In this document: positions 1,988-19,684 of the stretch, one piece after another
Layout: every line of letters starts with the position of its first letter
How positions within the stretch are numbered: position 1 is the first letter of the stretch
Origin: Lachnospiraceae bacterium
GTDB taxonomy: Bacteria > Bacillota > Clostridia > Lachnospirales > Lachnospiraceae
NCBI GenBank assembly: GCA_020860645.1
Contig: JAJBTX010000111.1
Span: 1-33,491 of the forward strand
Length of the DNA: 33,491 bases
Direction of reading: 5' to 3'
Position numbers and translations under genes: made by a program
Notes under the pieces: generated by a model
What the model was told of the DNA's origin: nothing
Databases searched by the model: none
Seen by the model: the letters and a program-made list of their open reading frames with translations, nothing else

Positions 1988-3949
1988 TTGGAGGACTACA
2001 CCAGATACAGGCTGAAAAGCCGCGAAGAACTGGCGTCGTTGTTGTCAGACACGGATCACCTGTTCGTGATCGCCTGCAACAAGTGCTTCAAAGAGTTTAC
2101 GGCCGTCGACGAACCGGATTGTTCAGAGTTTGAAAAAATTGCTGCAGAAGAGGGAAAGACAATCACGGGGAGCGCGAGGGTCGATTTTTTGTGCAATCAG
2201 ACGCAGACAGAGCGGAAGCTTCAGGACATGATCCCGGAGGGGACGGAGCATGTCTTTGTGGTGTCCTGCGGCCTGGGCGTGCAGACGGTCGCGGATATGC
2301 TGGATCTGCCGGTCTGCGCGGCGGCGGACTCGCTGAATTATACAGGGCATCACGGCATGGCGCTGACGAAGAGGCGCTGCGACGCCTGCGCGCAGTGCTA
2401 TCTGAATATTACCGGAGGCATCTGTCCGATCGTCGACTGCTCCAAGAGCCTGGTGAACGGGCAGTGCGGCGGCGCGAAGAACGGAAAGTGCGAGATCGAC
2501 AAGGACAAGGACTGCGCCTGGGAGAAGATTTACCGCAGGCTGGAGAAGCAGGGCAGACTTGAGGAGTTCCTGGCGCAGCCGGTGCAGCTGCGGGATTACT
2601 CGAAGGTTGACGTTAAGTTTGTGAACGAGTATGTGAAGTCGATTCGCGGGAACCGGCTCGAGGGCTATTACGGCGGCGTTCACCCGCTGGAGCGAAAAGG
2701 TTTTACCGAGCATCTTGCGCTGGAGCGTTTCCCGGAGCCGGAGATCGTGGCGATCCCGCTTTCGATGCATGCGGGCGCGCCGGCGAACCCGGTGGTGGCC
2801 GTGGGCGACACGGTGAAGGTCGGACAGAAGATTGGCGAGGCGGCCGGATTTATCAGCAGTCCGGTGCATTCGAGCGTCAGCGGCACGGTCATCGCGATCG
2901 AGACGCGCGCGCACGCGACGAGGGGCGAATGTCCTGCCGTCGTGATTCGCTCCGACGGGAAGGATACAATCGACGAGTCCGTGAAGCCTCACGCTTCCCT
3001 GGAGGAGCTGACGCCGGAGGAGATCATCGATATCGTGAAGGAGGCCGGTATCGTCGGTATGGGCGGCGCAGGCTTCCCGACCTCCGTCAAGCTGAAACCC
3101 GCGAAGCCGGTGGATACGATTCTTCTGAACGGCTGCGAGTGCGAGCCGCTGCTGACCGCGGATCACAGAGTAATGCTCGAGTTCGCGGACGACGTGGTCT
3201 TCGGTCTGCGGGCAATTGTAAAGACGGTCGGCGCGGAGCGCGGACTGATCGTCATCGAGGACAATAAGCCCGACGCGATCGAGCTGATGAAGGCGAAGAC
3301 CGCTCCCTATGAAAATCTGGATGTTGTGACGGCAAAGACGAAGTACCCGCAGGGCGCGGAGAAAATGCTGATTAAACGCGTGATGAAGCGGCAGGTGCCG
3401 AGCGGCGGGCTGCCGGCTGACGTCGGCTGCGTCGTGAGCAATATCAGCACCACGAAGGCGATTTCGGACGCGATTCAGAAGGGCATGCCGCTGATCTCCC
3501 GCGTCGTGACAGTGACCGGCGAGCGCCTGAAGCGCCCCGGAAACTATATCGTGAAGATCGGCACGGACACGCAGGCGATGATCGACTACTGCGGCGGTGC
3601 GGAGGGAGACGACATTACCTACAAGGCCGGCGGACCGATGATGGGCTTCCCGCTTTCCGATCTGCACGTTCCGATTATGAAGGGCTCGAACGGGATTATC
3701 GCGGTGGACACCGACCACACGGCGGAGCAGTCCTGTATCAAGTGCGGGCGCTGCGTGGACGTCTGTCCGATGGAGCTCTCCCCGCTGTATTTCGCGAAGT
3801 ACGCGGATGAAGAGAACTGGCAGGGCATGAAGGAAAAGAGCGTCATGGACTGCATCGAGTGCCGCTGCTGCGAATATATCTGTTCCTCGAAGATTCCGCT
3901 TGTGACGAAGATCAAGGCCGGAAAAGCCGCGGTAAGGGGGATGAAGTGA
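1988..3949 (+). CDS. rnfC2: MetV-RnfC fusion protein, electron-entry subunit of methylene-THF reductase (RnfC2-like)
   Basis: 653 residues. Residues ~1-205 are a MetV-like zinc/Fe-S domain with many cysteines (CACAQCY...CGGAKNGKCE), closely similar to the separate MetV encoded next. Residues ~220-325 resemble the RnfC N-terminal barrel-sandwich domain and ~345-520 the NADH/FMN-binding and SLBB region (GMGGAGFPTSVKL). Two ferredoxin-type [4Fe-4S] motifs follow at C583-C586-C589-C593 and C622-C625-C628-C632. In Acetobacterium woodii the MTHFR is a MetF-MetV-RnfC2 heterotrimer, where RnfC2 brings electrons from NADH; the gene order here fits that type. The start is TTG at 1988 behind AAGGAGGTG (1975-1983); no better-placed ATG exists. 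It is coupled to metV, with one base between stop and next start. Confidence 0.85.
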   Translation: MEDYTRYRLKSREELASLLSDTDHLFVIACNKCFKEFTAVDEPDCSEFEKIAAEEGKTITGSARVDFLCNQTQTERKLQDMIPEGTEHVFVVSCGLGVQTVADMLDLPVCAAADSLNYTGHHGMALTKRRCDACAQCYLNITGGICPIVDCSKSLVNGQCGGAKNGKCEIDKDKDCAWEKIYRRLEKQGRLEEFLAQPVQLRDYSKVDVKFVNEYVKSIRGNRLEGYYGGVHPLERKGFTEHLALERFPEPEIVAIPLSMHAGAPANPVVAVGDTVKVGQKIGEAAGFISSPVHSSVSGTVIAIETRAHATRGECPAVVIRSDGKDTIDESVKPHASLEELTPEEIIDIVKEAGIVGMGGAGFPTSVKLKPAKPVDTILLNGCECEPLLTADHRVMLEFADDVVFGLRAIVKTVGAERGLIVIEDNKPDAIELMKAKTAPYENLDVVTAKTKYPQGAEKMLIKRVMKRQVPSGGLPADVGCVVSNISTTKAISDAIQKGMPLISRVVTVTGERLKRPGNYIVKIGTDTQAMIDYCGGAEGDDITYKAGGPMMGFPLSDLHVPIMKGSNGIIAVDTDHTAEQSCIKCGRCVDVCPMELSPLYFAKYADEENWQGMKEKSVMDCIECRCCEYICSSKIPLVTKIKAGKAAVRGMK

Positions 3950-3950
3950 T

Positions 3951-4568
3951 ATGCTGATAACACAGTTAAAGGATAGAGATACCATCCGTTCCCTGACGGC
4001 AGGGAAAAAGGTTTTCATCATCAACTGCCATGGCTGCAGGGAGGTTTATTTTCCGCTGGAGGAGGCGGCTGATCTGCAGACGGAGCTTGCGTCGGCGGGA
4101 CAGGTATGCGGCGTCGTGACGACCGACTATATCTGTAATCCTGAGAACATGGAGCTGCGTTTCTCGAAATATAAAGAGCAGATTGAGGCTGCGGATCTGG
4201 TCATGGTCTTTTCCTGCGGCGTCGGCGTACAGACGGTCGCGGCTTATCTGGAGGAGAAGACCGTCCTGGCGGGCTGCGATACGGTGAGACTGCCGGGCGC
4301 GCAGGGCGTCACGCCGCTTGAATACGACTGCGGCCAGTGCGGCGAGTGCTACCTCAATCTGACCGGCGGCATCTGTCCGATTACCGCCTGCTCCAAGAGC
4401 CTGGTCAACGGCCAGTGCGGCGGTGCGAAGCATGGAAAATGTGAGGTGGACAGCGATATGGAATGCGGCTGGGAACGCATCTACCGGCGTCTCGAGAAGA
4501 TCGGCCGGCTGGACGCGCTGAACTGTCCGACCCAGATCCGGAACTATGCGACTGACGATGAAGTATAG
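3951..4568 (+). CDS. metV: MetV, zinc/Fe-S subunit of methylene-THF reductase
   Basis: 205 residues, cysteine-rich, of the MTHFR C-terminal/MetV family (DUF5981-type). Key blocks are NCHGC near residue 26, FSCGVGVQTVAAY, CGQCGECYLNLTGG and CSKSLVNGQCGGAKHGKCE. MetV bridges the RnfC-type subunit and MetF and is needed for MetF activity in acetogens. The N-terminal domain of the upstream fusion protein is a paralogue of this whole protein, pointing to a local duplication. The ATG lies 1 base after the preceding stop and the next gene follows within 11 bases, so the three genes form a tight operon. Confidence 0.85.
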   Translation: MLITQLKDRDTIRSLTAGKKVFIINCHGCREVYFPLEEAADLQTELASAGQVCGVVTTDYICNPENMELRFSKYKEQIEAADLVMVFSCGVGVQTVAAYLEEKTVLAGCDTVRLPGAQGVTPLEYDCGQCGECYLNLTGGICPITACSKSLVNGQCGGAKHGKCEVDSDMECGWERIYRRLEKIGRLDALNCPTQIRNYATDDEV

Positions 4569-6270: not shown

Positions 6271-7041
6271 ATGCCGCAGACAATCGCAGTGGCGGGGAAG
6301 GGCGGCGTCGGCAAGACAACGCTGACCGGAATGCTCATCCAGTATCTCGCGGAGCAGAAAAAGGGTCCGATTCTCGCGGTCGACGCGGATGCGAACTCGA
6401 ATCTCAACGAGGTGCTCGGCGTTGAGGTCGAGATGACGCTCGGCGATATTCGCGATGAGCTGGAAAATTCCGAGACAGCCAAAGTGAGCCCGATCCCGAA
6501 GGGCATGTCCAAGCAGGATTACACGGAGTTCCGTTTTGATTCTGCCCTGGTGGAGGAAGACGACTATGATCTGCTGGTCATGGGCCACACGCAGGGAAAA
6601 GGCTGCTACTGCTTTGTAAATGGCCTGTTGTCGACACAGGTCGCGAGGCGCGCGCAGAATTACAATTATGTGATCGTGGATAATGAGGCGGGGATGGAGC
6701 ACATCAGCCGCGGAATTCTCCCGAATGTGAATATTGTGATTCTGGTGAGCGACAGCTCCCGCCGTGGAATCCAGGCGGTCGGGCGCATCGCGAAGCTCAT
6801 ACCGGAGTGCGGGCTGAAGCCGCAGAAGGTCGGCCTGATTGTGAACCGGGCGCCGAAGGGCGTTCTCACAGATGGGATTCAGGAAGAGATTGAGAAACAG
6901 GGCCTGACGCTTCTGGGGGTCGTGCCGCAGGACGACGAGGTGTTCGAGTACGACAGCGAGGGAACGCCCACCACGGAGCTCCCCGCCGACAATCCGGTGA
7001 AATCCGCGCTTCGTAAGATCGTGGATCAATTGCAACTGTAA
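6271..7041 (+). CDS. cooC: CooC-type nickel-insertion ATPase (first copy)
   Basis: 256 residues, MinD/ParA-fold P-loop ATPase. GKGGVGKTT (about residues 9-17) is a deviant Walker A with the signature lysine, and DADANSNL follows as Walker A'. The CxC metal motif of CooC is at C112-C114 (GCYCFVN), and VIVDNEAGMEH gives the switch-II region. CooC dimers bind Ni(II) and use ATP hydrolysis to drive nickel into CODH. The 99-base gap from cooT shows no clear promoter. AGGAGGTGAC precedes the ATG. A second family member is encoded after CooS. Confidence 0.9.
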   Translation: MPQTIAVAGKGGVGKTTLTGMLIQYLAEQKKGPILAVDADANSNLNEVLGVEVEMTLGDIRDELENSETAKVSPIPKGMSKQDYTEFRFDSALVEEDDYDLLVMGHTQGKGCYCFVNGLLSTQVARRAQNYNYVIVDNEAGMEHISRGILPNVNIVILVSDSSRRGIQAVGRIAKLIPECGLKPQKVGLIVNRAPKGVLTDGIQEEIEKQGLTLLGVVPQDDEVFEYDSEGTPTTELPADNPVKSALRKIVDQLQL

Positions 7042-7073: not shown

Positions 7074-8969
7074 ATGAGTGAAGAATTCAGACTGACATAT
7101 GTGCACGAGATGGCAGAGGCAGTGCAGAAGCTGCAGGCCACCCGTGATAAGGTTGGCGCAGATTCCTGGGAGCTGCGTGTAAAGAACCAGACTCCCCACT
7201 GTAAATTCGGTGAGCAGGGTATCTGCTGCTGTATCTGCACGATGGGACCCTGCCGTATCACCCCGAAGGCGCCCAGAGGCATCTGCGGCTGTGATGTACA
7301 CGGCATCGTGGGACGTAACTATCTGAGATTTACCGCGGGCGGCGCGGCGACGCACTCCGATCACGGCCGCGAGATCTGCCACACCCTGTACGCTTCCAGC
7401 AAGGACGGCGCTTACAAGGTAAAAGACCCCGAGAAGCTGATCCGCATCGCGAAAGAGTGGGGTATCCAGACCGAGTATCGCGATATCTATGAGGTGGCGC
7501 ATGAGGTCGCGGAGATGGCTCTCATGGAGTACGGCAAGCCCTTTGGCGTATCCCGTTGGCTAAGCCGTGCGCCGCAGCACACCAGAGAGCTCTGGCACAA
7601 GGCGGAGATCGAGCCACGCGCGATTGACCGCGAAGTGTCCTGCTCGATGCATATGACCCATATGGGATGTTCTTCCAAGCCGGAAGCTCTGGTGCGTCAG
7701 TCTCTGCGCGCGGGCCTTGGTGATGGCTGGGGCGGCTCCATGTGCGGCACGGAGTTCTCAGACGTTCTGTTCGGCACGCCGAAACCGATCGAGACTGAGG
7801 CGAATCTTGGCGTCATGAATGCGGAGAACGTCAATATCGTTGTACATGGACATGACCCGTCGCTTTCCGAGATGATCTGCGAGTACGTGGAGGACCCGGA
7901 TCTGATCGCCTACGCGAAGTCCTTTGGCGCAAAGGGCATCACCGTATCCGGCGTCTGCTGTACTTCTAATGAAGTTGCAATGCGCCGCGGCATCCCGATG
8001 GCAGGAAACTTCCTGCAGCAGGAGAACGTGGTCCTGACCGGAGCCTGCGAGGCGATTGTCGTCGACGTGCAGTGTATCTTCCCGGCACTTGGACCCTTAA
8101 GCAAATGCTTCCATACGAAATTTATCACGACCTCTCCGATCGCGCAGATGCCGGATTCCGAGTTCGTTCGCTTCGACGTAGGAACCGCAGCCGAGAAGGC
8201 GAAATCGATCGTGAAGATGGCAATCGAGAACTTCCAGAACCGCAAGCCGGAGCTGGTGTACATACCGGATCTGAAGCGTCATGCGACGGTTGGCTATTCC
8301 GTCGAGGCGATCAAGAAGACGCTCGATACAGTTACAAACAGTCAGGTCGACGAGCTCGGCACGCTGAAGCCGCTGGTCGAGTGCGTGCGCTCCGGCGTCC
8401 TGCGCGGCGCGGTCGCGATGGTCGGCTGCAACAACCCGAAGGTGCGTCCGGACCGCTCTCACATCGAGCTGATGAAGAAGCTGATCGCGAACGATATCAT
8501 CGTCGTGGCTTCCGGCTGCTCGGCGCAGTCTGCTGCCAGAGCCGGCCTCATGGACAAGCGCGCGAAGAAGTACTGCGGTGCGGGTCTTAAGAGAGTCTGC
8601 GAGCTGGCGGACATCCCGCCGGTGCTGCACATGGGTTCCTGCGTGGATATCAGCCGCATGATGATTCTGGTATCTGATCTGGCGAAGGATTCCGGCTGGA
8701 ACATCGGTCAGCTGCCGGTTGTTGGCTGCGCGCCGGAGTGGATGTCTGAGAAGGCAGTTTCCATCGGCAACTATGTTGTTTCCACCGGTATTGATACCTT
8801 CCTCGGCATTGATCCCTATGTGGCGGGTTCCAGCGAGATGCTCTACTGGCTGACCGCGGGCGTGCGCGACTGGGTTGAGGCTGCCTTTACGATTGAGACC
8901 GACATGGAGAAACTCGAGAATGGCATCATTGAGCGTATCGAAGCCAAGAGAACGGCATTAGGTATCTAA
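7074..8969 (+). CDS. acsA: anaerobic carbon monoxide dehydrogenase catalytic subunit
   Basis: 631 residues, full-length CooS/AcsA. It interconverts CO2 and CO and, in acetogens, passes CO to acetyl-CoA synthase. C43 and C51 fit the D-cluster ligands; C52, C55, C60 and C71 fit the B-cluster (CKFGEQGICCCICTMGPC...GICGCD). C-cluster ligands are all visible in order: His in VVHGHDP, Cys in VCCTSNE, VQCIFP, VGCNNP, SGCSAQ and MGSCVD. The acid-base Lys lies in CAPEWMSEK near residue 560. TTAGGAG precedes the ATG. It is flanked on both sides by CooC-type ATPases, as expected for a nickel enzyme that needs maturation. Confidence 0.95.
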   Translation: MSEEFRLTYVHEMAEAVQKLQATRDKVGADSWELRVKNQTPHCKFGEQGICCCICTMGPCRITPKAPRGICGCDVHGIVGRNYLRFTAGGAATHSDHGREICHTLYASSKDGAYKVKDPEKLIRIAKEWGIQTEYRDIYEVAHEVAEMALMEYGKPFGVSRWLSRAPQHTRELWHKAEIEPRAIDREVSCSMHMTHMGCSSKPEALVRQSLRAGLGDGWGGSMCGTEFSDVLFGTPKPIETEANLGVMNAENVNIVVHGHDPSLSEMICEYVEDPDLIAYAKSFGAKGITVSGVCCTSNEVAMRRGIPMAGNFLQQENVVLTGACEAIVVDVQCIFPALGPLSKCFHTKFITTSPIAQMPDSEFVRFDVGTAAEKAKSIVKMAIENFQNRKPELVYIPDLKRHATVGYSVEAIKKTLDTVTNSQVDELGTLKPLVECVRSGVLRGAVAMVGCNNPKVRPDRSHIELMKKLIANDIIVVASGCSAQSAARAGLMDKRAKKYCGAGLKRVCELADIPPVLHMGSCVDISRMMILVSDLAKDSGWNIGQLPVVGCAPEWMSEKAVSIGNYVVSTGIDTFLGIDPYVAGSSEMLYWLTAGVRDWVEAAFTIETDMEKLENGIIERIEAKRTALGI

Positions 8970-8994
8970 ATCTGATAAGTAAAGAGGTGTGGAC

Positions 8995-9756
8995 ATGAAG
9001 ATTGCGGTTACCGGTAAAGGAGGAGTCGGCAAGACGACCTTTGCGGCGACGCTCGCAAGACTCTACGCGGACGAAGGAAAATCAGTTCTGGCCGCGGACG
9101 TGGACCCGGACGCGAACCTGGGGCTGGCCCTGGGATTTCCGGAGGACGTGCTGGACTCGATCATCCCGATTTCCAAGATGCGAAAGCTCGTAGAGGAGCG
9201 GACCGGCGCAGGCCCGGACAATACCTTTTACAAACTGAATCCGAATGTGAGCGATATTCCTGATACTTACAGCAAGACTTATAATGGAGTCAAGCTGCTG
9301 ACGCTCGGGACGGTGGAGACCGGAGGCGGCGGATGCGTCTGCCCGGAGCACGTGATGCTGCGGCGGATTCTCAGCAACCTGGTGATTCACCGGGACGAGG
9401 TGGTCATCATGGATATGGAGGCCGGTCTGGAGCATTTAGGCCGCGGCACCTGTGAGGTCATGGAACAGTTTGTGGTGGTTATCGAACCGGGGGCGCGCAG
9501 TGTGCAGACCTACAAAAATGTAAAACGACTTGCTCTGGATCTGGGAATCCGTCAGGTGCGCGTGGTGGCCAACAAGGTGCGCGGCGCGGAGGATGAGGAG
9601 TTTGTGCGCTCCCGGATTCCGGCGGAGGATCTGCTCGGCTTTATTCATTACAATGCCGAGGTGATCGACGCGGACCGGCAGGGAAAGGCTCCCTACGACG
9701 TGAGCCCGACCGCTACCGAGGAGATCCGGAGAATTAAGGAGATACTGGAACAATAA
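8995..9756 (+). CDS. CooC/AcsF-type nickel-insertion ATPase (second copy)
   Basis: 253 residues, with deviant Walker A GKGGVGKTT near the N-terminus, DVDPDANLGLALG as Walker A', and a CVC motif at C114-C116 (GGGGCVCPEH), the metal-binding CxC of CooC proteins. It differs clearly from the first CooC in the middle region, so it is not a recent duplicate. Lying between acsA and acsB1, it may serve acetyl-CoA synthase (AcsF-like) rather than CODH, but this is positional inference. ATG 8995 is preferred because GAGGTG (8984-8989) sits 5 bases upstream; the in-frame GTG at 8989 overlaps that site. Confidence 0.85.
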   Translation: MKIAVTGKGGVGKTTFAATLARLYADEGKSVLAADVDPDANLGLALGFPEDVLDSIIPISKMRKLVEERTGAGPDNTFYKLNPNVSDIPDTYSKTYNGVKLLTLGTVETGGGGCVCPEHVMLRRILSNLVIHRDEVVIMDMEAGLEHLGRGTCEVMEQFVVVIEPGARSVQTYKNVKRLALDLGIRQVRVVANKVRGAEDEEFVRSRIPAEDLLGFIHYNAEVIDADRQGKAPYDVSPTATEEIRRIKEILEQ

Positions 9757-9780: not shown

Positions 9781-11919
9781 GTGACATTATTTGACAGAGT
9801 ATTTGGCGGCTCGCAGGAAATGTATGCGTGGGCCGAGAAAGCTGTTACGGAAGCAGTCGAGAAATATGGCGTTGACAAAGAAGTTTCTCTTCCGCAGACG
9901 GCATACTGCCTGCCCTGCTACTATGCAGTGACCGGCGAGAAGCTGACGAAGCTGGGCGAGGTACAGGAAGCGCTCGGCGGCAGAATCAAGAGTATGATGG
10001 AGCGCAAGGAGCGTCTCCACAACGTCTTCCAGGCGGGCATCGGCACCGCGCTGGCGGCGGAGATCATTGAGGCCATGAAGTATATCGACGGCGCGGAGCC
10101 CTATGCGGAGCCCTATGTCGGAAGCTTCTCCGACGCCTGGATTCGTGAGCTGGGCGTGCCGCTGGTCACCGGCGACATCCCGGGCGTGGCGGTTCTGATC
10201 AACGCGGCTCCGACGAAAGAGGAGGCTGTGGCTCTGGTCAAGAGCTATCAGTCCCAGGGTATCTTTGTAACCTGTACCGGAGGCATCTGTCAGCAGCTGA
10301 TCGACGCCGGCTATAAGACCGGATTCAACGTGCGTGTGACGCTGCTCGGCGACGAGATCACTTCCGTCATCCACGTCGTATCCGTGGCTCTGCGTGCAGC
10401 ACTGATCTTCGGCAACATCACGCCGGGCGATCTCGATAGCCTGATGGAGTACACGAAGGACCGTGTGTTCGCGTTTGTCAATGCCTATGCTCCGGTCGAT
10501 GATCTGACTGTGGGCTGCGGCGGCGGCGCGATCGCCTTCGGCTTCCCGGTCATCTCAAACGACCTGGTCAGCCTCAAGGACATGAACGTGCCGAAGAGCC
10601 TGATTCTGCAGGGCGATACATCCAAATTCAACGCGACGTCGCTTGACGCGCGCGATATCAAGATCAAGATCGCGCAGGTCGATATCCCGGTTTCCTTTGC
10701 TTCCGCATTCGAGGGCGAGATCATCCGCCGCGGCGATATGCAGGTTGAGTTCGACGGCTCCAGAAAGGACTGCTTCGAGCTGGTCTGCACGAAGGAAGCG
10801 GGCGACGTCGTCGATCACGGCTTCGAGCTTATCGGACCGGACTTCGATGCGATGGAAGTTGGAAGCAAGCAGCAGATTGCCTATATCGTCAATGTGGCGG
10901 GCAAGAATATGCAGTCCGACTTCGAGCCGGTGTTTGAGCGTAAGTTCCACAGCTACATCAACTGCATCGAGGGCGTGATGCACACCGGACAGCGCGACAT
11001 GATCCGCGTCCGTATCAGCAAGAGCACCTTCGAGGCGGGCTTCCGCGCGAAGGATCTGGCGGAAGTGCTGTATGTCAATATTAAGAATGAGTTCGATGCG
11101 GTTGTCGACAAGTGTTCTGTGACGATTGTGACCGATCCGGCACAGTGCACAAAGCTTCGCCATGAGCTGGCGACGCCGGCTTACGATGCGCGTGATGAGA
11201 GACTGACATCCCTGACTGACGAGTCCGTGCCGGTTTACTACAGCTGCATCATGTGCCAGGCCTTCTCGCCGAGCCATGTGTGCGTGGTTACCCCGGAGCG
11301 CCTCGGACTCTGCGGCGCCGTTTCGTGGCTTGACGCGAAGGCGACGAACCAGCTTGACCCGCAGGGACCCTGCCAGGTTATCACCAAGGAGCGCGTGATC
11401 GACGAGAACCTTGGACGCTATGAGGATGTCGATGAGGCGGTCAACAAGTTCTCTCAGGGTGCTCTGGAGCACGTGACGCTCTACTCCATCATGGAAGACC
11501 CGATGACCTCCTGCGGCTGTTTCGAGTGCATCTGCGGTATCGAGCCCTTCTCGAACGGCGTGATTATCGCGAACCGTGAGTATGCGGGCATGACGCCTCT
11601 GGGCATGACCTTTGCGGATCTCGCCTCCATGACCGGCGGCGGCGTGCAGACCCCGGGCTTCATGGGCCACGGCAAGCACTTCATCTCTTCCAAGAAGTTC
11701 ATGAAGGCAGAGGGCGGCGTGGAGCGCATCGTCTGGATGCCGAAGGATCTGAAGGATCAGGTGAGCGAGCGTCTGAACGAGACCGCGAAGGAGCTCTACG
11801 GCATCGACAACTTCTGCGATATGATCGGCGATGAGACCGTCTCCACTGACCCCGAGTCTCTGCTCGAGTTCCTGACCGAGAAAGGCCACCCGGCGCTTGG
11901 CATGGAGCCCATGATGTAA
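9781..11919 (+). CDS. acsB: CO-methylating acetyl-CoA synthase, copy 1
   Basis: 712 residues. It condenses CO, the corrinoid methyl group and CoA. The A-cluster is complete: [4Fe-4S] ligands C489, C492, C501 and C511 (CIMCQAFSPSHVC...GLC), and the C578-G-C580 motif that holds the distal nickel. Residues ~1-310 are the CODH-docking/gas-tunnel domain, ~311-475 the middle domain and the rest the A-cluster domain. The N-terminal domain is less canonical than that of copy 2 and has extra cysteines, including C43xxC46 (AYCLPC) where other ACS proteins have no CxxC. The C-terminal half is almost identical to copy 2. GTG start behind GGAGGT at 7-base spacing. Confidence 0.93.
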   Translation: MTLFDRVFGGSQEMYAWAEKAVTEAVEKYGVDKEVSLPQTAYCLPCYYAVTGEKLTKLGEVQEALGGRIKSMMERKERLHNVFQAGIGTALAAEIIEAMKYIDGAEPYAEPYVGSFSDAWIRELGVPLVTGDIPGVAVLINAAPTKEEAVALVKSYQSQGIFVTCTGGICQQLIDAGYKTGFNVRVTLLGDEITSVIHVVSVALRAALIFGNITPGDLDSLMEYTKDRVFAFVNAYAPVDDLTVGCGGGAIAFGFPVISNDLVSLKDMNVPKSLILQGDTSKFNATSLDARDIKIKIAQVDIPVSFASAFEGEIIRRGDMQVEFDGSRKDCFELVCTKEAGDVVDHGFELIGPDFDAMEVGSKQQIAYIVNVAGKNMQSDFEPVFERKFHSYINCIEGVMHTGQRDMIRVRISKSTFEAGFRAKDLAEVLYVNIKNEFDAVVDKCSVTIVTDPAQCTKLRHELATPAYDARDERLTSLTDESVPVYYSCIMCQAFSPSHVCVVTPERLGLCGAVSWLDAKATNQLDPQGPCQVITKERVIDENLGRYEDVDEAVNKFSQGALEHVTLYSIMEDPMTSCGCFECICGIEPFSNGVIIANREYAGMTPLGMTFADLASMTGGGVQTPGFMGHGKHFISSKKFMKAEGGVERIVWMPKDLKDQVSERLNETAKELYGIDNFCDMIGDETVSTDPESLLEFLTEKGHPALGMEPMM

Positions 11920-11944
11920 CAATTATTGTTTTTATCACCCGACG

Positions 11945-11978
11945 AAGGGGAGCCCTGAAATTTTCAGGGTTTCCCTTT
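11945..11978 (+). terminator. stem-loop after acsB1, probable weak terminator or processing hairpin
   Basis: The core CCCTGAA-ATT-TTCAGGG (11953-11969) is extended by AAGGG/CCCTT outside, giving a long hairpin 26 bases after the acsB1 stop. A solid U-run does not follow (CGGAGCGTGCG), so it may act as a 3'-end stabiliser. A new promoter starts 18 bases downstream. Confidence 0.55.
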
Positions 11979-11996
11979 CGGAGCGTGCGAAAAGCT

Positions 11997-12024
11997 TTTA
12001 CTTTTCTTTTATTTGTGTTATAAT
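11997..12024 (+). promoter_or_regulatory. promoter of the corrinoid protein/methyltransferase unit
   Basis: TTTACT (11997-12002), a 16-base spacer and TATAAT (12019-12024) with the extended -10 element TGT immediately upstream. It lies 35 bases before the acsD start and its AAGGAGG site. TTGTGTTATAATTTACGG over the -10 has only a weak Rex resemblance (9 of 14). Confidence 0.65.
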
Positions 12025-12058
12025 TTACGGAGATATTTTTTAAGGAGGATACATACCA

Positions 12059-13000
12059 ATGCCATTCAATGGAAAATCAGGAAAATTCAATGCTTCCATC
12101 AACACAGTCGAGATCGGCTGCGGCGAGAAGGCAATCAAGATTGGCGGCGAGAACGTTTATCCGTTCTACACCTTTGACGCGCCGATCGAGAACGCGCCGA
12201 AGATCGGTGTCATGATTTCCGACCTCGGCCTGGAGAATGAGCCGGCGGGCGTGAAGGCCTACTATGAGGGCTGCAGCAGCTTCGCTGAGATCGCGCAGAA
12301 GGCTGCCGCGATGCCGGGAGCAGATTTCGTCTGCCTGAAGCTTGAGGGAGCGGATCCCAACGGCGAGAACAAGTCCACCGAAGAGTGCATGACCATTCTG
12401 AAAGAGGTCGTTGACGCCATCGACGTACCGCTTGTCGTGTACGGCTGCAAGAACGTGACGAAGGATGCCGAGCTTTTGACGAAGGCGGCAGAGGTTGCTC
12501 AGGGAAAGAATGTCCTGATCCTGGCGGCGAAAGAAGAGAACTACAAGGGTATCGGCGCAGCCGCGGGCCTTGCCTATAATCAGAAGGTCGGTGCGGAATC
12601 CGCCGTTGATATCAACCTTGCAAAGCAGCTTAACGTATTGATTTCCCAGCTCGGCGTAGCCCCGGCGAACGTTGTGATGAACGTCGGTACCGCGGCTGTC
12701 GGATACGGTTTTGAGTACGTGGTTTCCACGATGGATCGTGTCAAGGCGGCGGCTCTGTCCCAGGGCGACGCGCAGCTTCAGATGCCGATTATTACGCCGG
12801 TTGCCGATGAGGCATGGAGCACCAAGGAGGCGATTGCCTCTGAGGAAGATATGCCGGAGTGGGGCGATCAGGAAGCCCGCGGCATCGGCATGGAGGTATC
12901 CACGGCCGCTTCTGTACTGGCGTCCGGTTCCAACGCAGTCATTCTGAAACATCCGACTTCCGTTGCGACCATATCTGCATTGATCAAAGAACTGGTGTAA
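12059..13000 (+). CDS. acsD: corrinoid iron-sulfur protein small subunit (ACDS delta subunit)
   Basis: 313 residues, near the usual ~320 for AcsD. A TIM-barrel-like protein without Fe-S cysteine motifs. The N-terminus contains EIGCGEKAIKIGGENVYPFY, typical of the CdhD/AcsD family, followed by VCLKLEGADPNGENKS and VVYGCKNVTKD. It pairs with AcsC to carry the cobamide that moves the methyl group from AcsE to AcsB. AAGGAGG is placed 12 bases before the ATG. acsC follows after 21 bases. Confidence 0.93.
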   Translation: MPFNGKSGKFNASINTVEIGCGEKAIKIGGENVYPFYTFDAPIENAPKIGVMISDLGLENEPAGVKAYYEGCSSFAEIAQKAAAMPGADFVCLKLEGADPNGENKSTEECMTILKEVVDAIDVPLVVYGCKNVTKDAELLTKAAEVAQGKNVLILAAKEENYKGIGAAAGLAYNQKVGAESAVDINLAKQLNVLISQLGVAPANVVMNVGTAAVGYGFEYVVSTMDRVKAAALSQGDAQLQMPIITPVADEAWSTKEAIASEEDMPEWGDQEARGIGMEVSTAASVLASGSNAVILKHPTSVATISALIKELV

Positions 13001-13021
13001 TCGAGGAGGAGGAATCATACC

Positions 13022-14368
13022 ATGGCTTTAAAAGGATTAGATATTTTCAAACTGACACCCAAGACGAACTGCAAGGAGTGCGGCAGCCCGACCTGCATGG
13101 CCTTCTCGATGAAGGTGGCGCAGGGCGCGGTGGATCTTTCCAAGTGCCCGCATATGTCGGAGGAGGCTCTTGCGACGCTGTCCGAGGCGACGGCTCCGCC
13201 TATGAAGACGATCAAGGTCGGTACCGGCGACGCCGAGTACAGCCTGGGCGGTGAGACCGTTCTGGCCAGACATGAGAAGACCTTTGTCAGCAGACCGCGT
13301 TTCGCGGTGAACCTGACCGCAGACATGGATATCGACGTGGTGATGGCGGAAGTAAAGAAGGTAGATTATGACCGTATCGGCGAGCAGATGCACGCGGAGA
13401 TGGTCTACGTGGAGTATACCGGTGACAGCGCGGCTTATGTTGAGGCTGTGAAGAAGGTCTGTGGCATCGGCAAGACGATCATCCTTGGCTGCAAGGACGT
13501 CGCGGCGGCGAAGGCAGCCCTCGAGGTATGCAAGGCTGAGAAGCCGATCCTGGATGGAGCGGACGCTTCCAACTATGCGGACATGGTTGCCGCTGCAAAG
13601 GATGCGGGCGCGGTGCTCGGCGTGACCGGAGCGGATATCAATGAGCTCTACGACACGACTGCTGCGATTGAGAAGCTGGGTTACAAGGAACTCGTGCTCG
13701 ACACGACCGGAGCGGATATCAAGACAACCTTCGCGACCACGGTGCAGGTGCGCCGTGCCTGCCTGGCAAAGACCCCGGACAGAACCTGCGGCTATCCGTC
13801 GATCGTAAATCTTTCGAAGATTGCGCCGAACGATGAGCCGATGCAGATCGCGCTCGCGTCCATGTTCGTGCTGAAGTACGGCTCCATCATCGTGATGGAT
13901 ACGATGAACTATGCCAGAGCGCTTCCGCTGTATGGCCTGCGTCAGAACGTTTACACCGATCCGCAGAAGCCGATGAAGGTGGAGCCGGGCATCTATCCGC
14001 TGAACGGCGGCGATGAGAATTCGGTTGTGCTGACGACGGTTGACTTCGCGCTTACCTACTTCGTGGTTTCCGGCGAGCTGGAGCGCTCCGGCGTGCCCTG
14101 CAACCTCGTGATCAGCGACGCGGGAGGACTTTCCGTGCTGACGTCCTGGGCGGCCGGCAAATTCTCCTCGACCTCGATCTCGAAGTTCATCATCGAGAAT
14201 GTTGAGCCGAAGATTAAGTGCAGGAAGCTGATCATCCCCGGAAAGGTCGCCGTGCTGAAGGGCGATGTGGAAGCGAAGCTTCCGGGCTGGGAAGTGATCG
14301 TGGCTCCGAACGAAGCGGTGCAGCTTGTAAAATTCCTGAAGGACATGCAGGCGGCCGGAGAGATTTAA
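13022..14368 (+). CDS. acsC: corrinoid iron-sulfur protein large subunit (ACDS gamma subunit)
   Basis: 448 residues. The N-terminal [4Fe-4S] domain has C17, C20, C25 and C42, the same positions as in the Moorella protein. A TIM barrel follows, and the C-terminal ~130 residues form the corrinoid-binding domain (LVISDAGGLSVLTSWAAGKF). The Fe-S cluster reductively reactivates Co(II). It partners with AcsD. GGAGGAGG precedes the ATG. A hairpin and acsE follow, consistent with a shared transcript. Confidence 0.94.
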   Translation: MALKGLDIFKLTPKTNCKECGSPTCMAFSMKVAQGAVDLSKCPHMSEEALATLSEATAPPMKTIKVGTGDAEYSLGGETVLARHEKTFVSRPRFAVNLTADMDIDVVMAEVKKVDYDRIGEQMHAEMVYVEYTGDSAAYVEAVKKVCGIGKTIILGCKDVAAAKAALEVCKAEKPILDGADASNYADMVAAAKDAGAVLGVTGADINELYDTTAAIEKLGYKELVLDTTGADIKTTFATTVQVRRACLAKTPDRTCGYPSIVNLSKIAPNDEPMQIALASMFVLKYGSIIVMDTMNYARALPLYGLRQNVYTDPQKPMKVEPGIYPLNGGDENSVVLTTVDFALTYFVVSGELERSGVPCNLVISDAGGLSVLTSWAAGKFSSTSISKFIIENVEPKIKCRKLIIPGKVAVLKGDVEAKLPGWEVIVAPNEAVQLVKFLKDMQAAGEI

Positions 14369-14379
14369 ACTGTGAATGG

Positions 14380-14402
14380 CCCCGTCGCCTTCCGCGGCGG
14401 GG
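14380..14402 (+). other. intercistronic hairpin between acsC and acsE
   Basis: CCCCGTCGC-CTTCC-GCGGCGGGG forms a 9-bp GC-rich stem with one T-G wobble, 11 bases after the acsC stop. The following bases (TACAAATAAATAATC) are not a U-run, so an RNA-stability or processing element is more likely than a terminator. Confidence 0.55.
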
Positions 14403-14435
14403 TACAAATAAATAATCAAAAAGGAGAACATGACT

Positions 14436-15221
14436 ATGGCAAAATTTGTAGTAATCGGTGAGAGACTGTCCACGACCGCACCGAGCGTCAACAAGGCTTT
14501 CACCTCGAGAGATCCGGAGCCGATCATTCAGCGCGCGAAGCAGCAGCTGGACGCGGGCGCGACCTATCTGGATGTCAACATCGGACCGGCTGAAAACGAT
14601 GGACCCGATCTGATGAAGTGGGCGGTGCAGCTGCTTCAGAGCGAGTTCGACAATGTCCCGCTGGCGCTTGATACGGCGAACAAGGCCGCGATCGAGGCGG
14701 GCATCTCCGTCTACAACCGCGCGAAGGGTAAGCCGATCGTCAACTCCGCTGACGCTGCGGGCAGAATCGAGTACATAGACCTCGCCGCCGCAAATGACGC
14801 CATTGTCATCGCTCTGTGCAACGGCGAAGGCATCGCGAAGGACAACGACGAGCGTATGATGTACTGCCAGACCATGCTTGAGAGAGGTATGGAGCACGGC
14901 ATGGATCCGTCCGATCTCTGGTTTGATCCGCTGTTCCTTGTCATCAAGGGCATGCAGGACAAGCAGATGCAGATTCTGGAATGCATCAAGATGATTTCCG
15001 ATATGGAGCTGAACTCCACCGGCGGTCTTTCCAATAACTCGAACGGCATGCCGAAGCACATTCGTCCGATCATGGACTCCGCGATGGTTGCCATGGCTAT
15101 GATGTGCGGCCTGACCTCCGCGATCGTGAATCCGAACGACCTGCGTCTGATGGAGACGATCAAGTCCTGCGATATCATCAAGAATAACAATCTGTATGCA
15201 GACTCCTATCTGGAGATCTGA
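14436..15221 (+). CDS. acsE: 5-methyl-THF:corrinoid iron-sulfur protein methyltransferase
   Basis: About 261 residues, the length of Moorella AcsE (262). Pterin-binding TIM barrel: YLDVNIGPAEN (first conserved Asp/Asn), LALDTAN, WFDPLF with the third Asp, and GLSNNSNGMPKHIRP with the Asn that assists N5 protonation. It transfers the methyl group of methyl-THF to Co(I) of AcsCD. Two Met codons, 14430 and 14436, are possible; AAGGAG (14421-14426) is 3 bases from the first and 9 from the second, and MAKFVVIGE looks like the natural N-terminus. Confidence 0.93.
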   Translation: MAKFVVIGERLSTTAPSVNKAFTSRDPEPIIQRAKQQLDAGATYLDVNIGPAENDGPDLMKWAVQLLQSEFDNVPLALDTANKAAIEAGISVYNRAKGKPIVNSADAAGRIEYIDLAAANDAIVIALCNGEGIAKDNDERMMYCQTMLERGMEHGMDPSDLWFDPLFLVIKGMQDKQMQILECIKMISDMELNSTGGLSNNSNGMPKHIRPIMDSAMVAMAMMCGLTSAIVNPNDLRLMETIKSCDIIKNNNLYADSYLEI

Positions 15222-15236
15222 TCAGAGAGAGATAAG

Positions 15237-15259
15237 GAGGCACAAACATTTTGTGCCTC
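15237..15259 (+). terminator. perfect 10-bp hairpin between acsE and acsB2
   Basis: GAGGCACAAA-CAT-TTTGTGCCTC is a perfect inverted repeat followed by TTTGTATATAA, a weak U-run. It lies 15 bases after the acsE stop and can act as a partial terminator that lowers transcription into acsB2. No convincing promoter is visible between it and acsB2. Confidence 0.6.
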
Positions 15260-15300
15260 TTTGTATATAAGCAGACATATAAACAGGAGGTAATTGTAAA

Positions 15301-17436
15301 ATGGGTGCTTTGACAGATTTAATCTATGGGGGTTCCAATGCGGTGGCGGGCCTGACAGAGGGTGCTGTGAACGACGCGATCGCGAAACACGGGGAGGATG
15401 CGAAGGTATCTTTTGGCGATACGGCGTATTTCCTTCCGACCATCTACGCGGCCACGGGCGTAAAGGTCGCGAAGCTCGGCGATCTGCCGGCCTGTGTAGG
15501 CGTGCTGAAAAGCCTGATTACCAATGAGGAGGATCTGGGGGCGGCTCTGAACGCAGGTCTTGCGACGGCAGTCGGCGCGGAGATTCTCGAGGCTCTGAAG
15601 TATGTGGAGAGCGAGAATCCTTATGCGGAGGACAGCGGCATCGGCTTTGTGCCGGATCCGATCATCCGTTCCCTCGGTGTTCCGCTTGTGACGGGCGATA
15701 TCCCCGGTGTGGCGGTTATCCTTGGTAAAGCGGACAATGCGGCGGACGTGGCGAAGATTGTGAAGGATTACCAGAGCAAGGGTATCATGTCCTTCCTGGT
15801 GGGCGATGTCATCGAGCAATGTATGGAGGGCGGCGTGAAAATTGGCCTCGATTATCGTGTCGTTCCGCTCGGACATGATGTGACGGCTGTGATCCATGTT
15901 GTGACGGTCGCGATCCGCGCGGCACTGATCTTCGGCAATGTGAAGCCGGGCGACCTGGCGGGACTTCTCGCCTACACGAAGGAGCGTGTACCGGCCTATG
16001 TGAATACCTTCGGAGCACTGGATGCAGTGACCGTATCCGCGGGCGCAGGCGCGATTGCACTGGGCTTTCCGGTGATCGCGGACATCGATCTCGGCGATCT
16101 GCAGATCGCGGGGGCGCTGGAATCCGTGACCGACCATGACGCGACGGTGAAGAAGAGCCTTGAGCTTCGCAATATTAAGATTAAAGTAACAGAGATTCCG
16201 ATTCCGGTAGCATTCGCCTCCACCTATGAGGGCGAGATCATCCGCCGCGGCGATATGCAGATCGAGTTTGACGGTTCCAGAAAGGACTGCTTCGAGCTGG
16301 TCGTCACGAAGGACGCCTCTGAGATCGAGGATCATGAGTTCAAGCTCATCGGACCGGATTTCGACGCGATGGAAGAGGGCAGCAAGCAGAACATCGCCTA
16401 CATCGTGAGTGTTGCGGGCAAGAACATGCAGTCCGACTTCGAGCCGGTCTTCGAGCGCAAGTTCCACAGCTATATCAACTGCGTGGAGGGTATTATGCAC
16501 ACCGGACAGCGTGACATGATCCGCGTCCGTATCAGCAAGGACACCTTTGCAGCGGGCTTCCGCGCCAAGGATCTGGCGGAGGTGCTGTACTGCAATGTCA
16601 TGAACGAGTTCGACGCGGTTGTCGACAAGTGTTCTGTGACGATCGTGACCGATGCGGCAGAGTGCACGAAGCTTCGTCACGAGCTGGCGGTTCCGGCTTA
16701 TGACGCGCGTGATGAGAGACTGACCTCTCTGACTGACGAGTCCGTGCCGGTCTACTACAGCTGCATCATGTGCCAGGCATTTTCGCCGAGCCATGTGTGC
16801 GTTGTCACCCCGGAGCGCCTCGGACTTTGCGGCGCTGTGTCGTGGCTTGACGCGAAGGCTACGAACCAGCTCGATCCGGAAGGACCCTGCCAGGTCATCA
16901 CCAAGGAGCGCGTGATCGATGAGAACCTCGGCCGTTACGAGGATGTCGATGAGGCTGTGAACAAGTTCTCGCAGGGCGCTCTTGAGCATGTGACGCTCTA
17001 CTCCATCATGGAAGACCCGATGACCTCCTGCGGCTGCTTCGAGTGCATCTGCGGTATCGAGCCCTTCTCGAACGGCGTGATTATTGCAAACCGTGAATAC
17101 GCGGGCATGACGCCTCTGGGCATGACCTTCGCGGATCTGGCCGGTATGACCGGCGGCGGCGTGCAGACCCCGGGCTTCATGGGCCACGGCAAGCATTTCA
17201 TCTCCTCCAAGAAGTTCATGAAGGCAGAGGGCGGCGTGGAGCGCATCGTCTGGATGCCGAAGGATCTGAAGGATCAGGTGAGCGAGCGTCTGAACGAGAC
17301 CGCGAAGGAGCTCTACGGCATCGACAATTTCTGCGATATGATCGGTGACGAGACCATCGCGACTGAGCCCGAAGCGCTGCTCGAGTACCTGACCGAGAAA
17401 GGACATCCGGCGCTGGGGCTGGAGCCGATGATGTAA
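15301..17436 (+). CDS. acsB: CO-methylating acetyl-CoA synthase, copy 2
   Basis: 711 residues, with a complete A-cluster: C488, C491, C500 and C510, and C577-G-C579. The N-terminal domain is the more canonical of the two copies: TAYFLPTIYAATG...KLGDLP and VEQ-type helix ...GGVKIGLDYRVVPLG resemble the Moorella protein, as remembered, better than copy 1 does. From about residue 310 the two copies run nearly identical, including a 122-base stretch without a single nucleotide change (17206-17327 versus 11689-11810). AGGAGGT precedes the ATG. It lies after acsE and before the corrinoid activator gene. Confidence 0.93.
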   Translation: MGALTDLIYGGSNAVAGLTEGAVNDAIAKHGEDAKVSFGDTAYFLPTIYAATGVKVAKLGDLPACVGVLKSLITNEEDLGAALNAGLATAVGAEILEALKYVESENPYAEDSGIGFVPDPIIRSLGVPLVTGDIPGVAVILGKADNAADVAKIVKDYQSKGIMSFLVGDVIEQCMEGGVKIGLDYRVVPLGHDVTAVIHVVTVAIRAALIFGNVKPGDLAGLLAYTKERVPAYVNTFGALDAVTVSAGAGAIALGFPVIADIDLGDLQIAGALESVTDHDATVKKSLELRNIKIKVTEIPIPVAFASTYEGEIIRRGDMQIEFDGSRKDCFELVVTKDASEIEDHEFKLIGPDFDAMEEGSKQNIAYIVSVAGKNMQSDFEPVFERKFHSYINCVEGIMHTGQRDMIRVRISKDTFAAGFRAKDLAEVLYCNVMNEFDAVVDKCSVTIVTDAAECTKLRHELAVPAYDARDERLTSLTDESVPVYYSCIMCQAFSPSHVCVVTPERLGLCGAVSWLDAKATNQLDPEGPCQVITKERVIDENLGRYEDVDEAVNKFSQGALEHVTLYSIMEDPMTSCGCFECICGIEPFSNGVIIANREYAGMTPLGMTFADLAGMTGGGVQTPGFMGHGKHFISSKKFMKAEGGVERIVWMPKDLKDQVSERLNETAKELYGIDNFCDMIGDETIATEPEALLEYLTEKGHPALGLEPMM

Positions 17437-17752: not shown

Positions 17753-19684
17753 ATGCCCAATGTAACATTTCGATATGAAGACGGCGCTGCGACGACCGTC
17801 GCGGTGACAACCGGAGAGAACCTGTTGGAGGTGGCGCGCAAAGCGAATGTAGCCATTGATGCACCTTGTTCAGGCAACGGGTCCTGCGGGAAATGCAGAG
17901 TAAAATATATCAGTGGCGATTTGAAGACAGAACAGACAAGACACATTTCCGACGAGGATTTCAGGGAGGGCGTTCGCCTGGCCTGCGCCAGTACCATCGA
18001 AGGAGATGTGGAGATCCTGGTACCGGACATCGCGTCCGCCTACAAGAGCCGCATGAAGGTGGCCGATTTGAGCTCGAAGGAAGAGGTTGCCATCTTTGAG
18101 CAGGCGAAGCAGGACGTGGCGGAGGCCGGTATTCCCTTTGAAAATAATTTTCAGGTCGTGGAGCTGTCGATGGAGGAACCGACGCTCGACGACACTATGC
18201 CCGACAATGAGCGGCTGATCCGTGCCATTCAGGCCGTAGCGGGCGTGGAGAAAGTGAAACTGACTTATCAGGTGCTGAAGAAGCTGGCGGACGCGCTGCG
18301 CGACAACGCTTTCCACGTGAATGCCGTACTGAAAAAGGGCGCTCATGGCGTGCTGGTCTATGATGTGCTGCCGCCGGATGACGACCGTATCTTCGGTCTT
18401 GCGGTGGATATCGGTACGACGACCGTGTCGGCGGTCATCCTGAATCTGAAGGACGGCAGTCTTGTGGCAAAGGCTTCTTCCGGAAACGGACAGATTCGCT
18501 TCGGCGCGGACGTGATCAACCGGATCATTGAGTCCCGGAAGCCCGGCGGCAGCGCGAAGCTGCAGCGGGCCATTGTCGAGGAGACGATCAACCCGATGAT
18601 TCACAATATGTGCCACAGCGCCGGTATCCATGGAAGCCATATTTATCATATGTGCATTGCGGGCAACAGCACGATGAACCATCTGCTGATGGGCGTCAAC
18701 GCGGATCCGCTGCGCATGGAGCCCTACATTCCGACCTTCTTTGAGACGGACAATGTGGACGCCTATGACCTTGGTCTGCATGTGCATCCGGACGCACGGG
18801 TCATCATTTCGCCAAATATCGGCAGCTACGTGGGCGGTGATATCACGGCGGGTACGCTGGTCAGCATGATCTGGAACAAGCCGGAATTTAACCTTTTTAT
18901 CGATCTTGGGACAAACGGCGAGATCGTGTTCGGCAATTCAGACTTTATGATGAGCTGCGCCTGTTCCGCGGGACCGGCCTTTGAGGGCGGCGACATCAGC
19001 TGCGGCATGCGTGCGACGGACGGCGCGATCGAAGCCTGCACGATTGATGCGCACACGATGGAGCCGACGCTCACGATTGTCGGTGATGAGGGGCAGAAGC
19101 CGGTAGGTCTCTGTGGCTCCGGCATCATCGACGTGATTGCGGAGCTGTTCCGCTGCGGCATCATCAGCCCGAAGGGCAAGTTCATCCGTGAGGGTGAGAG
19201 AGTGCGGCACGACGCCTACGGCGTCGGCAGCTATGTGCTCGCATTTAAAGAGGACGCGGCGGGGCACAAGGACGTTGTGATCAACGAGGTCGACATCGAC
19301 AACTTTATCCGCGCGAAGGGCGCGATTTTCTCGGCGGTCTGCACGATGCTGCGCTCGCTTGACTTTGACGTGTCGATGATCGAGAATGTGTACGTCGCGG
19401 GCGGCATCGGAAGCGGCATCAATATGCGCAATGCTGTGGTGATCGGCATGTTCCCGGATATCGAGCTTGACAAGTTCCATTATATCGGCAATTCCTCGCT
19501 GACCGGCGCCTACTGCATGACGCTCTCGGACGCGGCGGAGGAGAAGGTGCATGAGCTCTCTCACAATATGACCTACATGGAGCTCAGCACGGAGCCGGGC
19601 TATATGGACGAGTTTGTGGCGGCCTGCTTCCTTCCGCATACCGATACTTCGCTCTTCCCGAGCGTGAAACAGGAGGAAATCTGA
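17753..19684 (+). CDS. reductive activator of corrinoid protein (RACo-like, [2Fe-2S] plus ASKHA domain)
   Basis: 643 residues. The N-terminal plant-type [2Fe-2S] ferredoxin domain has C39, C45, C48 and C78 (APCSGNGSCGKC...LACAS). A linker follows, and from about residue 215 an ASKHA-type ATPase (DUF4445-like) with AVDIGTTTVSAV, FIDLGTNGEI and GLCGSGIIDVIAEL. RACo uses ATP to drive electrons uphill to inactive Co(II) corrinoid, and this one lies directly beside its expected substrate genes. GGAGA at 17739-17743 is a modest ribosome site. It is also known as AcsV or Orf7 in other acetogens. Confidence 0.9.
   Translation: MPNVTFRYEDGAATTVAVTTGENLLEVARKANVAIDAPCSGNGSCGKCRVKYISGDLKTEQTRHISDEDFREGVRLACASTIEGDVEILVPDIASAYKSRMKVADLSSKEEVAIFEQAKQDVAEAGIPFENNFQVVELSMEEPTLDDTMPDNERLIRAIQAVAGVEKVKLTYQVLKKLADALRDNAFHVNAVLKKGAHGVLVYDVLPPDDDRIFGLAVDIGTTTVSAVILNLKDGSLVAKASSGNGQIRFGADVINRIIESRKPGGSAKLQRAIVEETINPMIHNMCHSAGIHGSHIYHMCIAGNSTMNHLLMGVNADPLRMEPYIPTFFETDNVDAYDLGLHVHPDARVIISPNIGSYVGGDITAGTLVSMIWNKPEFNLFIDLGTNGEIVFGNSDFMMSCACSAGPAFEGGDISCGMRATDGAIEACTIDAHTMEPTLTIVGDEGQKPVGLCGSGIIDVIAELFRCGIISPKGKFIREGERVRHDAYGVGSYVLAFKEDAAGHKDVVINEVDIDNFIRAKGAIFSAVCTMLRSLDFDVSMIENVYVAGGIGSGINMRNAVVIGMFPDIELDKFHYIGNSSLTGAYCMTLSDAAEEKVHELSHNMTYMELSTEPGYMDEFVAACFLPHTDTSLFPSVKQEEI

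Follow-up and report, generated by a model that had tools for sequence, protein, structure and literature searches.

Two acsB genes in one Wood-Ljungdahl cluster

The window analysed here, a 33,491-nucleotide stretch of DNA from a gut Lachnospiraceae bacterium (GenBank assembly GCA_020860645.1, contig JAJBTX010000111.1), carries two genes for acetyl-CoA synthase (ACS) within a single Wood-Ljungdahl cluster, and this pair is our subject. The first, acsB1 (9781..11919, + strand), begins at GTG and encodes 712 residues; the second, acsB2 (15301..17436, + strand), begins at ATG and encodes 711, both open reading frames (ORFs) being those proposed by an earlier reading of the sequence alone (hereafter the sequence-only reading). 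A search of the source genome, a 2.49 Mb draft in 133 contigs, found no third ACS gene, and acsA was the only gene detected for a carbon monoxide dehydrogenase (CODH). From 5' to 3' the cluster contains a gene for an RnfC-like protein with a MetV-type domain, then MetV, MetF, CooCa, acsA, CooCb, acsB1, acsD, acsC, acsE, acsB2 and acsV, followed by a DUF3786 protein, fhs, fchA and folD; the names CooC, MetV, fhs, fchA and folD are ones we presume from position.

Both proteins match NF040764 over nearly their full length (999.9 bits for AcsB1 and 1025.7 for AcsB2, cut-off 800) and contain PF18537 (A1), PF03598 (CdhC middle) and PF19436 (C-terminal A-cluster). The motifs CIMCQ, HVCVV, LCGAV and SCGCFEC, whose cysteines we take to be A-cluster ligands, start at residues 489, 499, 510 and 577 of AcsB1 and at 488, 498, 509 and 576 of AcsB2. 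In the Protein Data Bank (PDB) the best match was 6ytt (949.9 bits for AcsB2, 888.0 for AcsB1), from Clostridium autoethanogenum; further ACS structures are 7zkj (Carboxydothermus) and 1mjg/1oao (Moorella). The two proteins resemble the bacterial AcsB of these three organisms in being full-length, three-domain enzymes that keep the active-site motifs, but differ from those structures in that there are two of them, almost the same in A2-A3 and unlike in A1; to our knowledge, the known ACS structures hold one ACS type per complex. PMC11321310 gives the CO alcove of Moorella ACS as G145, I146, V149, F229 and F512, and PMC12289521 describes a gating helix. The alcove and gating motifs GVPLV (the gating motif), ALIFG and CQAF are kept in both AcsB1 and AcsB2, the position of Moorella I146 being Val, as in C. 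autoethanogenum. All 145 aligned rows have F at the position of the alcove phenylalanine (F209 of C. autoethanogenum).

AcsB1 and AcsB2 are 44.9% identical over AcsB1 residues 1-299 (the N half) and 91.5% identical over the remainder (the C half), which bears out the sharp contrast that the sequence-only reading had described. In 30-column windows, amino-acid identity stays at 30-60% up to alignment column 300 and then steps sharply to 73-100%. The step falls near the boundary between domains A1 and A2, the CdhC domain starting at residue 301-302 in both proteins. Synonymous divergence (dS) is similarly uneven along the genes: the N half, at 1.95, is near saturation, against 0.46 for the C half. 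The identical 122-base run reported earlier (11689..11810 in acsB1 and 17206..17327 in acsB2, both on the + strand) is real; it is the longest identical run in the C half, and its length was reached in 0 of 2000 codon shuffles. In six complete copies from relatives, the same stretch differs from that of the window's acsB1 at 2-6 of 123 positions (two copies cut by contig ends, with 57 and 66 differences when gaps are scored as differences, were set aside). Because the stretch is near-invariant in relatives, it seems to lie in a slow region and says little about recent conversion.

Probable separate origins of the N and C halves

We built trees of each half from 125 ACS sequences and, more carefully, from 55 rows rooted on C. 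autoethanogenum; loci from repeat genomes (L152, L155, L156, L171), identical sequences and ACS ORFs shorter than 600 residues were excluded from both sets. The N-half and C-half trees conflict, and the 125-sequence and 55-row trees agree with each other. In the N-half tree, AcsB2 falls within a clade of B2-type sequences from many Lachnospiraceae genera (support 100/99), and the N1 clade that contains AcsB1 also includes G029, Merdisoma and 1XD21-13 (100/100). In the C-half tree the two are sisters (100/98), nested in their own genus (100/99). An approximately unbiased (AU) test of the N half rejected a single clade of window-clade B1 and B2 sequences by 307 log units (p 3e-43).

Diagnostic sites give the same picture. 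At sites where five congeners are uniform, six B2-type genes are uniform and the two groups differ, the N half of AcsB2 carries the B2-type residue at 66/71 and the native one at 0/71, and its C half is native at 44/46 and B2-type at 1/46. At sites that separate the congeners from five N1 genes, the N half of AcsB1 is N1-type at 38/41 and native at 3/41, against native at 17/20 and N1-type at 1/20 in the C half. Apart from one stray donor-type site per C half, each gene shows a single switch along its diagnostic sites. In acsB1 this switch lies at codons 280-285 (10618..10635, + strand), between the last N1-donor-type site, 280, and the first native-type site, 285, and is defined by three native sites (285, 288 and 297). 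The acsB2 switch lies at codons 298-324 (16192..16272, + strand), between the last B2-type site, 298, and the first native-type site, 324. Since these zones do not overlap, we infer at least two crossovers. In B2-type genes of other genera the C half is only about 60-68% identical to that of the window. With half trees that conflict and diagnostic sites that switch once, a mosaic history of acsB1 and acsB2 is, on sequence grounds, very probable.

It follows that the sequence-only reading was right that recombination made the catalytic halves alike, but not that the docking half diversified after a duplication: the N halves are two old types known in other genera, and the C halves are the genus's own. 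A recent duplication with fast N-half divergence, or a slower C half, would be another account of the identity step, and the C half is indeed the slower one in 16 pairs of a CODH-adjacent and a B2 gene without overwriting (37-57% identity in the N half, 59-71% in the C half). However, this account leaves the non-sister N halves (the p of 3e-43 above) and the flip of AcsB2's diagnostic sites from B2-type to native unexplained, and the best change point of identity is at 311 in 4/4 window-clade pairs, compared with 376-574 in the non-overwritten pairs (with ranges reaching down to about 300 in G326 and G185). We therefore consider it very improbable.

Both acsB types occur in 6/17 genomes of the genus, the source genome included. 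Each of the other 11 has one full-length standard-type acsB, whose N half is 61-64% identical to that of AcsB1; one of these, G003, has an additional short ORF. Among named assemblies, the pair occurs in BH.2_9, C.10_6 and AH.13_1, each time in the same gene order and on one contig. An assembly artefact that copied part of acsB, which the sequence-only reading had raised as a possible refutation, might be suspected in a draft of so many contigs. It is contradicted by the six genomes with both types, by C-half dS values of 0.46-0.71 in the four tested and by the clade loci L028, L029 and L030, which lie outside the source genome and have the two genes together on a single contig (in L028 the end of acsB2 is cut by the contig end); we give it practically no weight.

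The C-half dS values also bear on when the exchange took place. Orthologues between clade species differ by 0.16-0.45, paralogues within four genomes by 0.46-0.71, and the pair from the single-copy congeners tested by at least 0.85. This order places the exchange within the genus and before the clade species split. The sequence-only reading had instead proposed that gene conversion maintains the catalytic half, and some features would fit conversion that keeps the two halves identical: the 122-base run, a low proportion of synonymous differences (pS) of 0.085 for the window pair near the 3' end (columns 640-680) and a window paralogue dS of 0.46, lower than the 0.57-0.71 in L028, L029 and L030. 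Ongoing conversion would, however, leave paralogues sharing species-specific alleles, and among six pairs of four genomes we counted 49 within-genome agreements in the C half versus 47 cross agreements (p=0.92). In the C trees, moreover, the B1 copies of the different species make up one clade and the B2 copies another, and the identical run is near-invariant in relatives as well. Maintenance by conversion is thus improbable.

A different route to the same mosaics is that only A1 halves moved, foreign A1 sequences arriving by horizontal transfer and recombining into genus-type acsB copies. For the A1 of acsB1, identity is about 80% with N1 genes from outside the genus and about 62% with congeners; the C half of acsB1, like acsD, acsC and cooCa, is congener-like, and the congeners have a single full-length standard-type acsB. 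On the other hand, acsB2 sits between acsE and acsV, a usual B2 locus, which fits a resident B2 gene with an overwritten C half, and neither acsA nor cooCb shows affinity to a donor. We regard movement of the A1 halves as a serious possibility that falls somewhat short of even odds. Transfer of acsA-cooC-acsB1 as one block was also considered and rejected: acsA and cooCb are equally distant from congeners and N1 donors, and no block could be defined.

Probable recurrence of the exchange and stand-alone A1 genes

Tandem acsB pairs were found in 11 genomes, directly 3' of cooC and, where the contig continues, 5' of acsD. Their N halves are 57-73% identical and their C halves 84.5-94%, and the best change point lies at residues 287-298 in 9/11; the exceptions are G277 (369, range 301-374) and G731 (478). 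Across all within-genome ACS pairs compared (L144_B2_36, L224 and L225 being left aside), the change point falls at 287-311 in 13/32. Set against cross-genome pairs whose N halves are about equally alike, 9/11 tandem pairs have a C-half identity above the 96th percentile; the ranks of G046 (0.72) and G731 (0.86) are not exceptional. The second tandem copies cluster across genera in the N tree (10 rows, 96/97). For a few lineages the case for repeated exchange is good; for the remaining tandem-pair lineages such exchange is likely.

Two near-identical acsB genes (99.3% in the N half, 99.8% in the C half) occur in Blautia parvula (L223, L054), distant from each other in one chromosome, the second near an acsA of its own. 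Another family of the order contains a 1153-residue ACS (L224:2947-6408, − strand) that, by eye, resembles a fusion of ACS with an AcsD-like C-terminal part.

Genes that consist of A1 alone adjoin acsA in G003 (L153:11120-12103, − strand) and G074 (L167:2249-3142, + strand). Counted from the methionine of MTLFD, each encodes 297 residues and ends at the equivalent of AcsB1 residue 296. Compared with the A1 of the AcsB encoded in its own genome, the product is 71% identical in G003 and 80% in G074, and the ratio of nonsynonymous to synonymous divergence (dN/dS) is about 0.08-0.09, dS being near saturation in G003. In both, the alcove phenylalanine is replaced, by S in G003 and by L in G074. The congeners that were searched yielded no counterpart. 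These genes suggest that A1 is able to serve CODH alone.

CODH partners and possible roles of the two enzymes

The two acsB genes have different neighbours. Immediately upstream of acsB1 are acsA (7074..8969) and CooCb (8989..9756, directly 5' of acsB1), preceded by CooCa (6271..7041); we take CooCa and CooCb to be CooC-type maturation ATPases from their position, CooCa matching relatives among P-loop ATPases, none over the cut-off. Downstream of acsB1 are the genes for the small and large subunits of the corrinoid iron-sulfur protein (CFeSP), acsD (12059..13000; NF040759, 496.3 bits) and acsC (13022..14368; NF003195, 505.6 bits), and the methyltetrahydrofolate:CFeSP methyltransferase gene acsE (14430..15221; NF040758, 462.7 bits). 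On the far side of acsB2 is acsV, for the corrinoid reductive activator (17753..19684; NF040756, 980.5 bits). All of these are on the + strand. The same division holds across genomes when neighbours within 600 bases are counted (L144_B2_36, on a very long branch and after CooC, was excluded from the class counts). Genes lying 3' of CooC or acsA number 29/29 for N1, 65/68 for the standard type and 0/18 for B2, and B2 genes have acsE upstream in 12/18 and acsV downstream in 10/18. CODH-ACS genes lie apart from CFeSP-B2 genes in G066, G170 and the genus of G235.

All six clade genomes have one CODH apiece (in G008 as two pieces at contig ends), so two ACS share a single CODH; an arrangement of two ACS for two CODHs in the window clade was ruled out by the same count. 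Of the 29 N1 rows, 25 belong to genomes that contain a second ACS, the exceptions being three related genomes and G211; of 43 whole-searched genomes with a standard-type gene, 4 contain one.

According to the literature, A1 faces CODH, and A2-A3 meets CFeSP. We looked for covariation among 84 loci with AcsA, AcsC, AcsD and a CODH-adjacent ACS of set lengths, with relatedness controlled through the other subunits only. With the C half, AcsC and AcsD held constant, the CODH-adjacent ACS shows covariation of its N half with AcsA (partial r 0.46, p 0.001) and none with AcsC (0.04, p 0.25), which fits these roles. The C half co-varies with both AcsA (0.47) and AcsC (0.29).

Taken together, our results are best explained, with a probability of roughly 0.68, by mosaic genes that encode two functional ACS in a genome with one CODH. 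Three ancestral pieces would have been involved: an N1-type A1 (in acsB1), a B2-type A1 (in acsB2) and the genus's own A2-A3 half (in both). They would have been joined close to the A1/A2 boundary by homologous recombination that preceded the split of the clade species, and purifying selection, rather than repeated conversion, would have kept the catalytic halves alike since. Both products would be working ACS that use a common CFeSP and CoA through the shared A2-A3 half, with A1, which would face CODH and hold the CO tunnel and most of the alcove, as the variable cassette. The gene for AcsB1 lies with those for CODH and CooC, and its product would be the channelling CODH-ACS subunit; AcsB2, encoded beside the methyl-branch genes and possibly in its own transcription unit, would be a second ACS. 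The latter might act on the same CODH with other properties or in other states, or might be detached, using dissolved CO or working in acetyl-CoA cleavage. According to PMC12289521, CO can reach the A-cluster from solution, with high-affinity binding, which makes a detached ACS chemically reasonable, and CODH-free work by AcsB2 is plausible. That B2 is mainly not a tight CODH partner is a tentative view, to which we would give a little less than an even chance.

Several results weigh against parts of this reading. For the C half, an AU test did not reject a single clade of all rows with B2 N halves (43 log units, p 0.053); a shift of the long B2 branch to the window sequences may account for this. 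Only 3/11 tandem pairs (G277, G243 and G149) are supported sisters in the careful C tree; there, the two copies of each of the four Blautia-like pairs separate and group by lineage, and the other pairs are either separated or unresolved. The evidence for recurrence is therefore chiefly that of the change points and identities. Where both types are present (15 genomes), AcsA co-varies significantly neither with the N half of the CODH-adjacent gene (r -0.14) nor with that of B2 (0.05). All three genomes with B2 as the only ACS type and no CODH match are incomplete. Of the A1 positions conserved in standard genes (n=124), 17 have been lost from the majority of B2 genes and 4 from the majority of N1 genes (four single-ACS N1 rows counted separately, the L213 and L214 copies excluded), yet mean retention is near-equal (0.851 for N1, 0.845 for B2), and A1 identity to C. 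autoethanogenum is higher for the window's AcsB2 (57.8%) than for its AcsB1 (49.0%). With retention equal and the B2 A1 nearer to C. autoethanogenum, B2 may still dock. By this measure the CODH-adjacent AcsB1 would have the more derived A1, which argues against a simple loss of docking in B2. The sequence-only reading had suggested one ACS bound to CODH and one for free or alternative use: the neighbourhoods and the single CODH fit this division, but A1 identity and covariation speak against it.

The same observations could also be accommodated by a heteromeric complex in which AcsB1 and AcsB2 occupy the two ACS sites of one CODH dimer, or alternate on it by condition, with A1 tuning the channel or affinity. 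A single CODH with two ACS in the clade, the second ACS in genomes of 25/29 N1 rows and the C. autoethanogenum-like sequence retained in the B2 A1 are all compatible with such a complex. It would not, however, lead one to expect that B2-type genes adjoin CODH genes in 0/18 cases or, perhaps, that the majority of B2 genes have lost 17/124 conserved positions of A1, and we consider a heteromer unlikely, if by no means far-fetched.

The presence of two acsB genes per genome is already known. In the parts of the published work available to us, some Lachnospiraceae are described whose acs cluster includes a second acsB, the two copies in TWA4 being 63.38% identical; those parts cover partial acsB sequences and gene order, and not separate histories of the N and C halves. 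Among the open-licence papers that our searches returned, none mentions a mosaic acsB in its title or in the opening of its abstract; the name acsB1 does occur in three papers on acetogens. Dehalococcoides has an 'incomplete' Wood-Ljungdahl pathway without CODH. A comparable set of B2-type ACS and CFeSP genes with no CODH match was found in G235, G339 and G419, and these might suggest ACS and CFeSP working without CODH as in Dehalococcoides. Their assemblies are, however, 79-90% complete and possibly missing sequence, and our source genome, unlike Dehalococcoides, has a CODH. In congeners of G235 the CODH/N1 locus and B2 lie on different contigs, one of these congeners, G420, shows the opposite pattern, and in G339 the contig ends 5' of acsD.

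It is tempting to speculate that A1 in Lachnospiraceae is an exchangeable docking cassette, repeatedly swapped near residues 280-325 onto the local catalytic half, that this yields one CODH with two ACS isoforms dividing channelled and non-channelled CO, and that in two genomes the cassette stands alone as a CODH-capping protein without the alcove phenylalanine; we would sooner doubt than accept this proposal as a whole. The pair amounts to a natural experiment on the role of the bacterial ACS N-terminal half, with one organism, one CODH, the same catalytic half and two docking halves, and comparing AcsB1 with AcsB2 would separate channelling from catalysis. The homologous subunit of methanogens lacks the ACS N-terminal half, according to PMC11321310. 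As acsB serves as a marker gene for acetogens (PMC12449052) and can be mosaic, short-amplicon trees may place one gene in different lineages depending on the half sequenced.

The N terminus of AcsA is itself unusual in the window clade. The leader common in relatives (MGDFKLTTVEEFEAATARLLETGAKVGAD) is rewritten there (window 7074-7172, AcsA residues 1-33). Comparing three clade members with 16 chosen genomes, we found that 23/414 AcsA sites invariant in the 16 are changed in the three; 10 of the 23 lie at residues 2-33, and one is the start Met. Such changed sites number 0-3 in other acs subunits, and congeners have 0 in AcsA. Odd AcsA leaders also occur in L140, L151, L216, L218 and L144. Covariation of the AcsA leader with A1 was not significant (r 0.15, p 0.07).

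Finally, acsB2 is flanked by predicted hairpins. One, of 10 pairs, lies in the gap between acsE and acsB2 (15237..15259) and was seen in 5/5 clade genomes looked at; our scan scored it as terminator-like on the − strand only, and terminator-like sites in the region (5 observed, 10.7 in shuffles) are not above chance. A promoter-like site in the gap between acsB1 and acsD (11997..12024, + strand) matches 10/12 consensus positions, as a consensus match only; the region has 12 promoter-like sites, compared with 6.7 in shuffles. At the upstream end of the cluster, a MetV-like C-terminal domain (DUF5981) occurs twice in succession at 1988-4568, first in the RnfC-like fusion and then as a separate gene.

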